DNA from: Phycisphaerales bacterium
Lineage (GTDB): Bacteria; Planctomycetota; Phycisphaerae; Phycisphaerales; UBA1924
Assembly (NCBI GenBank): GCA_007693785.1
Contig: RECY01000025.1
Coordinates: forward strand, 62,001-126,000
Reading direction: 5' to 3'
Length of the DNA stretch: 64,000 nt
Below are positions 45,627-50,498 of the stretch, piece by piece. Within the stretch, counting starts at the first letter, position 1; the number at the start of each line of letters is the position of its first letter. The notes beneath the pieces were generated by a model. The model saw nothing but the letters and a program-made list of their open reading frames with translations. It searched no databases and was not told where the DNA came from. The position numbers and the translations under genes were made by a program.

Positions 45627-45852
45627 GGCGTGTCCTTCCTCGGGGAGCCGCCCCCGAACCGCGTGGGGCGACCGACGAACAACACCCGCCAACCCTCCGC
45701 GTCGCCCGGGCGGCCCGGGCCTGCGTACGCTTCGCCCCCGGTTCGCGGCGACCGCCGAGCCGGGGTCGAAACCCTTGCTTTTCAAGCAAACAATGCCCGC
45801 CGCCCGCCTATTCCACCGGGCAGCGCCCAAACAAGTTGACGAAAGGTCCGAC
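45627..45852. other. divergent intergenic region upstream of prpD
   Basis: No gene is seen. TTGCTTTTCAAGCAAACA (45776-45793) contains a small palindrome (TTGCTTTTCAAGCAA), a possible operator for the propionate locus. A TATTCC occurs 35 nt before the prpD ATG. Confidence 0.4.
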
Positions 45853-47469
45853 ATGAGCGACGCGACGCGCGTGACCCTGCCCGCCGACACCAATCAGGCC
45901 CTCGGCATCGCACAGTTCGCGGTCGATTTCATGTCGAGCGATCACGCGAAACAGGGCGACCCCGGCGCGGCCGTCCTCGAACGCACCAACCTCTTCCACA
46001 CCGACGCCTGCCTCTGCGGCGTCAGCGCGCTCGCCCTCGGCACCAACGCCCCCACCATCCTCCGCGACGAAGCCCTCCGCTACCCGCTCGCCAAGGGCGA
46101 GACCGGCGCGACCGTCTTCGGCAGCGCCGAACGCGTTAAGCCCGAGAAGGCGATCGTCGCCAACAGCTCCGCCGTCCGCGAGTGGGACAGCAACGGCACC
46201 AACTTCGGCTTCCGCCCCGAGCTCGGGCACACCGCCGGCGAGTTCGGGCACAACGACTTCTACCCCGTCGCGATCGCTGCGGCCCAGGTCGCCGGGCTCG
46301 ACGGGGCGGCCGCCCTCCGCGGCATGGTCCTGCTCGACGAGATCCGCGGTCGCCTCGCCGAGGTCTTCAGCCTCAAGACCTACAAGATCGACCACGTCGT
46401 CCACGGCGCCGTCGCGAGCGCCGCGACCTACGGCGCGATGCTCGGCGCGACCGCCGAGCAGATCGAGAGCGCCATCGGCATGGCGATCGCCCACTACATC
46501 CCCTTCCGCGCGATCCGCGCCGGCAAGCAGCTCTCCGACAGCAAGGGCGCCAGCGCCGCGATCAGCACCGAGGCCGCGGTCCTGAGCGTGCAGCGCTCGA
46601 TGGCCGGCTTCATGGGCCCGCGCGACATCTTCCGCAACCCCGAGGCGATCTTCCGCATCTTCGAAGGCCCCGGGCAGATGTTCAAAGCCGTCAATGCGGT
46701 GAATGCCAACACGGAGAAGCGCGACGCGAGCCCGTTCGAGCTGGTCCTGAGCCGCGCCGGCGACGACTTCGCCGTCATGGGCATGCACTTCAAGCTCGGG
46801 CTCTACGAGCACCAGTCGGCCGGCGCGCTCCAGGCCGCGATCGACCTCGCCGCCAAGAGCCCCGCCCTGCTCGACAACAACGGCGAGAACATCAAGAACA
46901 TCAAGATCGTCGCCTACGAGCCCGCGTTCGGCATCATCGGCGACCCGGCGAAGAAAGACCCGCGCACACGCCAGTCCGCCGACCACTCCATGGCGTACAT
47001 CGTCGCCACGCTCCTCCGCAAAGCGATCGAGCAGCGCGCCAAGCTCCCCGCCCCCAGCGGCGAGAGCAACGATTCGTGGTGGAAGGCCCTCATCCTCGAG
47101 CCGCACGACTACAACGAGAGCGCCATCTTCCACCCGCTCACCCGCAAGCTCATGGCGAAGATCGACTTCACCCACGGCGGCCCCGACTACGACGCCAAGT
47201 ACCCCGACGGCATCCCCACCGGCATGGTCATCACCGCCGCCGACGGCTCGACGCACGACTCCGGGCTGGTCATGTACCCCGCCGGGCACGCGAGAAACAT
47301 CAGCGCCGACCTGCGCGACATCCTGAACAACAAGTTCCGCGTCCTCGGCGCGATCTCCGGCGACGCCGACGCGATCGTCGCCAAGCTCAGCAACATCGAA
47401 CAAAAATCCGCCGCCGACATCGCGAGCCTGACCGACTTCCACATCCACAACCACGGCAAGTTCGAGTAA
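45853..47469 (+). CDS. prpD: 2-methylcitrate dehydratase (MmgE/PrpD family)
   Basis: This 538-residue enzyme dehydrates 2-methylcitrate in the methylcitrate cycle that oxidises propionyl-CoA to pyruvate and succinate. MmgE/PrpD family segments are present: the substrate-site region NSSAVREWDSNGTNFGF, GHTAGEFGHNDFYPVAIAAAQ, and the helical part VVHGAVASAATYGAMLG. It is longer than E. coli PrpD (about 480 residues), as in the variant clade. The ATG at 45853 has GAAAGG upstream. It is followed by prpB and, after a foreign gene, prpC. Confidence 0.9.
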   Translation: MSDATRVTLPADTNQALGIAQFAVDFMSSDHAKQGDPGAAVLERTNLFHTDACLCGVSALALGTNAPTILRDEALRYPLAKGETGATVFGSAERVKPEKAIVANSSAVREWDSNGTNFGFRPELGHTAGEFGHNDFYPVAIAAAQVAGLDGAAALRGMVLLDEIRGRLAEVFSLKTYKIDHVVHGAVASAATYGAMLGATAEQIESAIGMAIAHYIPFRAIRAGKQLSDSKGASAAISTEAAVLSVQRSMAGFMGPRDIFRNPEAIFRIFEGPGQMFKAVNAVNANTEKRDASPFELVLSRAGDDFAVMGMHFKLGLYEHQSAGALQAAIDLAAKSPALLDNNGENIKNIKIVAYEPAFGIIGDPAKKDPRTRQSADHSMAYIVATLLRKAIEQRAKLPAPSGESNDSWWKALILEPHDYNESAIFHPLTRKLMAKIDFTHGGPDYDAKYPDGIPTGMVITAADGSTHDSGLVMYPAGHARNISADLRDILNNKFRVLGAISGDADAIVAKLSNIEQKSAADIASLTDFHIHNHGKFE

Positions 47470-47564: not shown

Positions 47565-48476
47565 ATGCCAGACGCCCTCCCCCACCCCGGCACCCAGCTC
47601 CGCCGCCTCATGGACGCCGCCTGCGTCCCCATCCCCGGCGCGTTCAACGGGCTCGTCGCCCGCGCCGTCCGAGACGCCGGCTTCCAGGCCGCCTACCTCT
47701 CCGGCGGCGCGACCAGCGCCGCCGCCGGCGTCCCCGACGTCGGGCTGCTCACGCTCGACCGCTTCGCCCAGGCGATCCGCGAGGTCGTCGACGGCTCGCG
47801 CCTCCCCGTCCTCGCCGACGCCGACACCGGCTTCGGCGAAGCCGAGATGACCCGGCGCACCGTCATCACCTACCACCGCGCCGGCGCCGCCGGGCTCCAC
47901 ATCGAGGACCAGGTCTTCCCCAAACGCTGCGGGCACCTCGACGGCAAGGCCCTCGTCCCCACCGACCACATGACCGAAAAAGTCGCCTGGGCCCGCAAAG
48001 CGAGCGACGACTGCTCCGGGGGCGCGTTCATCATCTGCGCCAGGACCGACGCCGCCGGCGTCGAGAGCGTCGAAGCCGCGATCGAGCGAGCCGCCGCCTA
48101 CGTCCAAGCCGGGGCGGACATGATCTTCCCCGAAGGCCTCCGCACCGAGCAGGACTTCGCCCGCGTCGCCGAAGCCGTCCGCACGCTCCGCACCCACGTC
48201 GGCACGCGCCCCTACCTGCTCGCCAACATGACCGAGTTCGGCAAAACCCCGATGCTCCCCGTCGCCCGCTTCGCCGAGCTCGGCTACGACGCGGTGATCT
48301 TCCCGGTCACCACCCTCCGCATCGCGATGCACGCCGTGACCGAGGCTCTGAAAGAACTCCACGACACCGGCACGGCCGAAGGGCTGCTGGATCGGATGCA
48401 GACGCGGCAGGAGTTGTACCGACTGCTGGAGTACACGCCGAGCAAGCCGTGGGAGATGCCGACAACTAGCTATTGA
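47565..48476 (+). CDS. prpB: methylisocitrate lyase
   Basis: This 303-residue member of the isocitrate lyase/PEP mutase superfamily splits 2-methylisocitrate into pyruvate and succinate. The loop KRCGHLDGK with catalytic Cys122 is the signature of methylisocitrate lyase, and ADADTGFG (Asp85, Asp87) binds magnesium. The TIM-barrel pieces AYLSGGATSAAAG and YLLANMTEFGKTP fit too. The stop overlaps the end of the convergent AT-rich gene by 7 nt. The C-terminus KPWEMPTTSY may have been altered by that insertion, though the length is normal. Confidence 0.94.
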   Translation: MPDALPHPGTQLRRLMDAACVPIPGAFNGLVARAVRDAGFQAAYLSGGATSAAAGVPDVGLLTLDRFAQAIREVVDGSRLPVLADADTGFGEAEMTRRTVITYHRAGAAGLHIEDQVFPKRCGHLDGKALVPTDHMTEKVAWARKASDDCSGGAFIICARTDAAGVESVEAAIERAAAYVQAGADMIFPEGLRTEQDFARVAEAVRTLRTHVGTRPYLLANMTEFGKTPMLPVARFAELGYDAVIFPVTTLRIAMHAVTEALKELHDTGTAEGLLDRMQTRQELYRLLEYTPSKPWEMPTTSY

Positions 48477-49282
48477 AACTCCACCCCAAGCAGAGACATC
48501 GCGCGTGAGAATTCTTTTAGTCTTTCATCGTACTTGCCCATCCACGCATCCCCGTCTTCAAATGTCGCCACTCGCGAAAACCCTCGCATGTACAATATGC
48601 GTGAAAAATCCATGCCAAGCAGTGCATTGTGTAAAACGACTTCTGGTCTAATCATCGATATGATTTTAATATTTCCGTGTATAATTCGGTGATAATTTAC
48701 CGAATGAACAGCATTAATATATTTTGAAATATAATTTGCATTTTTCTCGCTACTAGACATTATTTTTACACAATACTCAATAGCCTGTTTAATGCTACCA
48801 TCTTCATGATACATCTGGATATCTTCGAGTCCGAGCAGCGATTCGTTTGCCAAATTTCGCATTGCACTCGCCGGCTCACTTGCACCCGCACCAGCCATCG
48901 CCTTGGATGCTTCGAGAATATCATTTGCCTCACGTCTAATAAGCGATAAAAATCCTCGATCTATGTTTGCCGCATGCACAAACTTTGTCGCAGACTCTAC
49001 CGCAGGTCTTGCAATCATCGATAAACAAACTATATTTCCTGACCTGCACACAGCCGATGACGCTTCGGCACACGCCGCAATCCAATTGCAATGGTTTGAA
49101 AGATACTGACCAATTGCCATTCTGACTCGATCGCGTTCGCGATCTTTTACTTTTGCAAATAGCTCACTCTTTAGATAAAATGAATTTTGAACTGCCTCCC
49201 GGTAGAATCCACGCACACTGTCTGAAATGGCACGAAAGGCTTTTCCGGAAGCATTCGCTTGGTCGTCAATGGTAACTGGCAT
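48470..49282 (-). CDS. AT-rich hypothetical protein, probable horizontal acquisition
   Basis: This 270-residue, mostly helical cytosolic protein has no recognised domain. The central segment (NWIAACAEASSAVCRSGNIV and LSMIARPAVESATKFVHAAN) has the pattern of the DUF5677/HEPN-like helical proteins often found near defence genes, at low confidence. Two hand-counted 60-base blocks inside (48661-48780) are 27% and 23% G+C against 67% just beyond (49381-49440). It is rich in AAT, ATA and TTT codons, unlike its neighbours. It sits on the opposite strand between prpB and prpC. No flanking repeats or transposase remain. Confidence 0.75.
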   Translation of the reverse strand: MPVTIDDQANASGKAFRAISDSVRGFYREAVQNSFYLKSELFAKVKDRERDRVRMAIGQYLSNHCNWIAACAEASSAVCRSGNIVCLSMIARPAVESATKFVHAANIDRGFLSLIRREANDILEASKAMAGAGASEPASAMRNLANESLLGLEDIQMYHEDGSIKQAIEYCVKIMSSSEKNANYISKYINAVHSVNYHRIIHGNIKIISMIRPEVVLHNALLGMDFSRILYMRGFSRVATFEDGDAWMGKYDERLKEFSRAMSLLGVEFQ

Positions 49283-49343
49283 ATCATTCGACCCTTTCCC
49301 GAGTCACCTTGGCATCTGCAGTTCACACGCACGGAGCGATCAT

Positions 49344-50498
49344 ATGCCTGACAAACCCCACGCCCGCGGCCTCGAGGGCGTCATCGCCGGTGAAACCGCC
49401 ATCTGCTCGGTCGAGCAGGGGGCCCTGATCTACCGCGGGTACGAGATCCACGACCTCGCCGAGCACGCCACGTTCGAGGGCGTCGCCCACCTGCTGCTCC
49501 ACGGCGAGAAGCCGAGCGACGCGCAGCTCAAGACCTTCCGCGAGCGCGTCGCCGCCGAGCGACCCGTGCCCGCGCCGGTGATCGACTACCTGCGTGCGAG
49601 CAAGGGCCCGCTCGCCGAGGGCTCGGCCGTCCCGATGGACGTGCTCCGCACCTGCGTGAGCATCCTCGCCAACCTCGACGCGGAGAGCCAGTCGATCGAC
49701 CACGACGCCAACCTGCGCAAGGCTGAACGCCTGCTCGCGAAGATCCCGACCATCATCGGGCACATGCAGCGGATCATCGACGGGAAGGACCTCGTCGAGC
49801 CCGAACGCGGCGGGGACCCGGCCCTCTCCCACGCGGCGAACCTGATGTACCTGATGACCGGCGAGAAGCCCTCGCCCGAGGCCGAGAAGGTCATGGACGT
49901 CAGCCTGATCCTCTACGCCGAGCACGACTACAACGCGAGCACGTTCGCTAGCCGCGTCATCGCGGGCACGCTCAGCGACATGCACGGCGCCGTCACCGGC
50001 GCGATCGCCGCCCTCAAGGGCCCGCTCCACGGCGGCGCCAACGAGGCCGCGATGGAGATGCTCAAAGAAATCCGCGAGCACCTGGACAAGGGCGGCACCG
50101 TCCGCGACTTCATGGACAACGCCTTCGCCACCAAGCGCAAGCTCATGGGCTTCGGGCACCGCGTCTACAAGAACGGCGACCACCGCGCCCCCATCCTGCA
50201 CAAGCTCGGGCGCAAGATGGCCGAGGCGAAGGGGGCCGACGCCGTCAAGTGGTTCGAGATCGGCGAAGAGGTCCAGCAGATCATGCTGAAAGACAAGCAG
50301 ATCCACCCGAACGTCGACTTCCCGTGCGGCTTGACGTACTACACGATGGGCATCCCGGTGCCGCAGTACACGCCGATTTTTGTGGCGAGCCGCATCACCG
50401 GCTGGGCCGCCCACATCATCGAGCAGCACGACAACAACCGCCTGATCCGCCCGATCGCGCAGTACACCGGGCCAGGCCCGCGCCAGTGGAACGGGTGA
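49344..50498 (+). CDS. prpC: 2-methylcitrate synthase (citrate synthase family)
   Basis: This 384-residue enzyme condenses propionyl-CoA (or acetyl-CoA) with oxaloacetate. The catalytic His of PLHGGANEAAMEML and the His in FGHRVYKNGDHRAPIL are in place, and the Asp near HPNVDFPCGLTYYTMG is present. The choice of methylcitrate over citrate synthase rests on the prpD-prpB context, since sequence alone does not separate the two. The ATG at 49344 has GGAG 7 nt upstream. A strong terminator follows 67 nt downstream of the stop. Confidence 0.92.
   Translation: MPDKPHARGLEGVIAGETAICSVEQGALIYRGYEIHDLAEHATFEGVAHLLLHGEKPSDAQLKTFRERVAAERPVPAPVIDYLRASKGPLAEGSAVPMDVLRTCVSILANLDAESQSIDHDANLRKAERLLAKIPTIIGHMQRIIDGKDLVEPERGGDPALSHAANLMYLMTGEKPSPEAEKVMDVSLILYAEHDYNASTFASRVIAGTLSDMHGAVTGAIAALKGPLHGGANEAAMEMLKEIREHLDKGGTVRDFMDNAFATKRKLMGFGHRVYKNGDHRAPILHKLGRKMAEAKGADAVKWFEIGEEVQQIMLKDKQIHPNVDFPCGLTYYTMGIPVPQYTPIFVASRITGWAAHIIEQHDNNRLIRPIAQYTGPGPRQWNG

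Follow-up and report, generated by a model that had tools for sequence, protein, structure and literature searches.

Horizontal transfer quite probably brought one protein-coding gene, from a source richer in AT, into the prpB–prpC junction of a GC-rich member of the Phycisphaerales; the gene has not adopted the composition of its host. The gene (the orphan; its protein, P0001) lies in a window of 64 kb, that is, the whole stretch of DNA analysed. Its coordinates and translation confirmed the antisense 270-residue ORF between prpB and prpC that had been noticed by an earlier reader of the letters (the sequence-only reading), with an ATG start and an unbroken frame (Table 1). The G+C content of the ORF was 43.3%, as against a mean of 68.9% elsewhere (sd 2.3%, minimum 61.8%), the baseline being the other 77 blocks of 800 nt in the window, which neither overlap each other nor touch the ORF; the whole window averaged 68.6%. 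At third codon positions, the orphan had 38% G+C, compared with 85–96% in prpB, prpC, prpD, and the next glycosyltransferase gene. In 600-nt blocks, the orphan was the sole patch below 55% G+C within the window (minimum, 40%), and the two blocks counted by hand in the sequence-only reading were exact, with 26.7% at 48660–48719 and 23.3% at 48720–48779. Elsewhere in the source genome, 20 stretches (298,881 bases) were sampled, one of which consisted only of N; 2 of the 19 readable stretches dipped below 55% G+C in a 600-nt block, to 52% and 54% at the lowest.

Table 1 The orphan gene and its surroundings in the window
Feature	Coordinates	Strand	Basis
prpD (MmgE/PrpD family), upstream member of the prp locus	45847–47469	+	Pfam
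prpB (2-methylisocitrate lyase type; PEP_mutase/ICL families)	47565–48476	+	Pfam
AT-rich 270-codon orphan gene, protein P0001	48470–49282	-	ORF call, composition, shuffle test
Divergent gap from orphan start to prpC start, 61 nt, 54% G+C	49283–49343		Size and G+C computed
prpC (2-methylcitrate synthase type; citrate synthase family)	49344–50498	+	Pfam

The ORF is not a chance frame, because none of 1000 dinucleotide shuffles of 48470–49343 reached 270 codons (longest ORF, 228 codons). Its intactness, previously taken to suggest selection, would equally be expected of a recent arrival. The orphan stands tail-to-tail with prpB, the stop of which is overlapped by the end of the ORF by 7 nt, as had been claimed, and head-to-head with prpC, which has about 60 nt of leader left upstream of its start. 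The C-terminus of prpB is of the usual length and matches those of relatives. In the promoter scan, no sigma-70-like site was found on either strand of the 61-nt gap, nor any on the minus strand. The scan did return four such sites within the insert, all of them plus-strand, where 1.2 were expected, as well as two terminator-like sites against an expectation of 0.8; one of the latter lies past the orphan stop on the minus strand (48375–48359). None of these sites was counted as evidence. The orphan and prpC share, in their start contexts, an inverted near-repeat of 10 nt. The gap is likely to contain start signals for the two genes. The absence of mobile-element scars also held up: a very permissive flanking-repeat search, which returned 9 families of direct repeats and 12 pairs of inverted ones, revealed by eye no target-site duplication bracketing the insert, and none of the 10 neighbours scanned was assigned by Pfam to a transposase or integrase family; 2 of these 10 had no match at all. 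The matched neighbours (8 of 10) include thiolase, mechanosensitive channel, PrpD, and glycosyltransferases.

The junction was then compared among relatives. Matches to prpB were present in 97 of 100 family genomes and to prpC in 61 of 61 (E ≤ 1e-30, source genome included in both). Of 585 confirmed prpC loci, the survey covered the best 80, which had identities up to 73% and were mostly titled Phycisphaerales, Phycisphaerae, Phycisphaeraceae, or Planctomycetota. A same-strand prpB lay upstream of prpC in 34 of these 80 loci; it was not shown in the other 46, partly through contig ends. Among the 34, the gap was about zero in 3 (outgroup loci with Latescibacterota and Hydrogenedentota titles), 49–197 nt in 15, and 874–3202 nt with other ORFs in 16, one of them from Hydrogenedentota. 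The longest ORFs of these 16 long gaps had 143 to 754 codons, the shortest (L202) being a doubtful gene. A second set of genomes, picked after the distances had been seen and partly the same as in the 80-locus survey, showed the same two states of the junction, with 12 long gaps and 10 short ones, besides 1 locus in which prpB and prpC occupy different strands.

No orphan-like protein was found in the best 80 of the 585 prpC loci by tblastn at E ≤ 1e-10. Likewise, the best blastp match between P0001 and the spacer ORFs had an E value of 0.46; each locus contributed at most three ORFs, all 120 aa or longer. The comparison of prpB–prpC spacing, which the sequence-only reading had proposed, gave short or differently filled gaps and supports the reading of the orphan as a foreign gene. 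Extra ORFs at this junction are common, and it is the AT-rich composition that sets the orphan apart: the other gap ORFs share the junction, and some are antisense, whereas their spacers (55–74% G+C) differ from the flanking DNA by no more than about 11 points, compared with about 25 points for the orphan, and their sequences are unrelated.

Within each of two groups of gap ORFs, similar features were seen by eye. In the filled gaps of L039, L067, L070, L071, L073, L075, and L212, proteins of 250–316 aa, oriented as prp, have by eye a hydrophobic stretch at the N-terminus and, at the C-terminus, a CxxC...CxECG pattern resembling a zinc ribbon; the pairs L067/L149, L070/L178, and L073/L164 were judged from identical ORFs to come from the same genome. 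Similar-looking antisense ORFs of 230–247 aa occur on the minus strand at L204:3227–3967, L206:1752–2441, L207:4123–4812, and L209:1016–1705, with a lipoprotein-like N-terminus by eye, a spacer G+C near that of the flanks, and no blastp match to P0001.

These data also bear on the idea that a fragment of another organism was joined into the contig during assembly. The genome is in 45 contigs and the composition of the insert is sharply different, as such an artefact might produce; against this, prpD, prpB, and prpC are complete and in order around the insert, which comprises just one gene, the junction is filled by other ORFs in 16 of 34 loci, and the contamination estimate was 0.33. We therefore regard an artefact as highly improbable.

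Relatives of P0001 were sought in three sets of genomes, which were overlapping draws. The orphan itself was the sole match among 101 related genomes at E ≤ 0.001; at E ≤ 0.01, 392 genomes of the phylum yielded the orphan and four short pieces, and 400 genomes of the order yielded the orphan and one short piece. All five pieces (L002–L005 and L115; E values, 0.0013 to 0.0063) were judged to be non-relatives. The strongest, L002, showed 29% identity over 94 residues (E = 1.6e-6 within the five preselected loci), and was rejected on inspection: it falls at a stretch that looks membrane-spanning by eye, in a very long protein frame that Pfam did not recognise. For L003, tblastn returned no alignment at all. 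P0001 had no significant match in Pfam, NCBIfam, PADLOC, or PDB; DnaB_2 of Pfam (E = 0.11, under its cut-off) and eS25 of PDB (E = 0.84) were not accepted as matches. The DUF6988 profile (PF22491), unlisted in the Pfam scans of P0001, matched none of 61 genomes, including the source genome, and likewise none of 14 control genomes. No account of this gene or of the prpB–prpC junction was found in the papers searched on DUF5677, on methylcitrate in Phycisphaer- taxa, or on ORFan/HEPN. Because no donor or relative was found in any set searched, it is composition and absence that carry the case for transfer.

A viral origin was considered in particular, according to which the orphan is a remnant of phage or other mobile-element DNA that had a former viral role and is a passive passenger today. 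Small AT-rich genes without relatives have been linked to integrated elements (Cortez, Forterre and Gribaldo 2009; PMC2718499), and P0001 gave one weak PHROG match, to phrog_34623 of unknown function (E = 0.012, residues 137–266), the profile of which matched the source genome alone among the 101 genomes (E = 0.0043). This match was non-significant, given that 2 of 14 control genomes also matched the profile at E ≤ 0.01 and that one shuffled copy of P0001 hit another PHROG at 0.093 (reversed P0001 hit none). Moreover, no match at E ≤ 1 came from tblastn searches of 72,556 plasmids and of 50,697 phages, pattern scans of viral contigs and genome contigs, with a reach limited to close relatives, found no relative, and the window has no other patch below 55% G+C. 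Such a remnant is thus rather unlikely, though the most serious of the alternatives.

The sequence-only reading had also seen a DUF5677/HEPN-like look in the protein, for which the sequence comparisons gave no support. A profile was built from the cores (more than 110 residues) of 31 of 33 DUF5677 proteins of the phylum. P0001 scored 1.1 bits against it and was equalled or beaten by 217 of 2000 shuffles, whereas all 31 members, when left out in turn, scored 20.9–83 bits, a control biased in their favour by their having been chosen with Pfam's own profile. With the full-length profile, the score was 0.3 bits, and 168 of 2000 shuffles did as well. Consistently, hhalign of P0001 against a six-member DUF5677 alignment gave a probability of 0.1%, the curated cut-off of DUF5677 (PF18928; 27.1 bits) was not reached by P0001 in the Pfam scans, and the source genome had no DUF5677 match in the genome profile searches. 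Membership of P0001 in DUF5677 is rejected on the profile test with its leave-one-out and shuffle controls. A failed profile match leaves room for a distant common fold, because a search with the lone sequence of one DUF5677 member itself found just one plasmid match.

HEPN RNases carry an R-x4-6-H motif within a helical bundle. P0001 contains one R-x5-H (RPEVVLH, residues 212–218), which was rejected as evidence for HEPN, at least one such motif being expected by chance, as found in 80% of 5000 shuffles. By eye, ARPxxE (residues 91–96) and YHRIIHG (197–203) recall the RSxxE and SxxxH positions of the DUF5677 members of the phylum, and the full-length profile aligns RPavE of P0001 to the RSxxE position, at the above-mentioned 0.3 bits; this likeness may serve as a lead only. 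The single-sequence AlphaFold2 model of P0001 (mean pLDDT, 37.8) was too poor for use, and hints weakly that the protein is probably helical.

The DUF5677 proteins of Planctomycetota resemble P0001 in length (mostly about 240–350 aa), with no sequence relation detectable by profile. Their distribution is sporadic, with matches in 7 of 101 genomes (E ≤ 0.001) and in 23 of 294 (E ≤ 0.0001), and, like the orphan, their genes are often below their surroundings in G+C (26 of 33). Seven of these genes, from family- and order-level relatives (L086–L092), have G+C contents of 0.41–0.61 against 0.58–0.68 for their loci, and may also have been singly acquired; among the 26 further members in the phylum, 19 were lower than their loci, 1 equal, and 6 higher.

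We weighed whether P0001 is a very divergent, stand-alone RNase-type effector of abortive infection or defence with a HEPN fold (DUF5677-like) that arrived as cargo. The helices of the low-confidence model, the by-eye likeness at ARPxxE and YHRIIHG, and the low G+C of the DUF5677 genes in seven relatives would fit such an effector; the shuffles that equal its 1.1 bits while left-out members score far higher, the hhalign result, the lack of a significant Pfam or PADLOC match, and the R-x5-H expected by chance speak against it, and make it improbable. The defence or accessory role suggested in the sequence-only reading found no evidence as regards defence: PADLOC gave no match for P0001 at E ≤ 1 and none for its 10 neighbours at E ≤ 0.001. 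A defence function of P0001 is possible, and no result points to it; a role in either defence or nucleic-acid binding is one option to which we give limited credence. It is a long shot that P0001 founds a new family of single-gene helical effectors, with a HEPN-like fold past sequence recognition, that settle in non-damaging gaps of metabolic operons and prefer the prpB–prpC junction of Phycisphaerales.

The foreign, intact single gene proposed in the sequence-only reading is thus supported by its composition, its absence from the relatives searched, and the short or differently filled gaps at their junctions. With an intact frame, an atypical composition, and no relatives in the sets searched, the orphan fits the description of an AT-rich, horizontally acquired ORFan. 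The recently acquired AT-rich ORFans of bacterial genomes (PMC2718499) are alike in being atypical in composition, intact, and without a relative in the sets searched, whereas the orphan differs from the genes described there in standing alone in a metabolic gene cluster with no atypical genes around. A priori, such genes are expected to be accessory or phage-derived cargo (PMC2718499), and our guess is that P0001 is accessory cargo of a phage or another mobile element.

We infer horizontal transfer, its recency, and expression from a promoter of the orphan's own in the 61-nt gap. Most likely, the orphan would have come by itself or be all that is left of a larger element, and its insertion would have taken place at a spot sparing both prpB and prpC. 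If expressed at all, it would probably be expressed from the divergent gap; the scan showed no promoter-like site on the minus strand.

Overall, the orphan is an ordinary kind of AT-rich gene at a site where it does no harm and, at present, a further example of orphan genes marked by their composition. That relatives fill the prpB–prpC gap time and again with different ORFs, in 16 of the 34 loci with prpB upstream, is a small, testable observation on harmless landing places in an operon. Relatives that reveal a mobile single-gene family, if found, would make the orphan matter.
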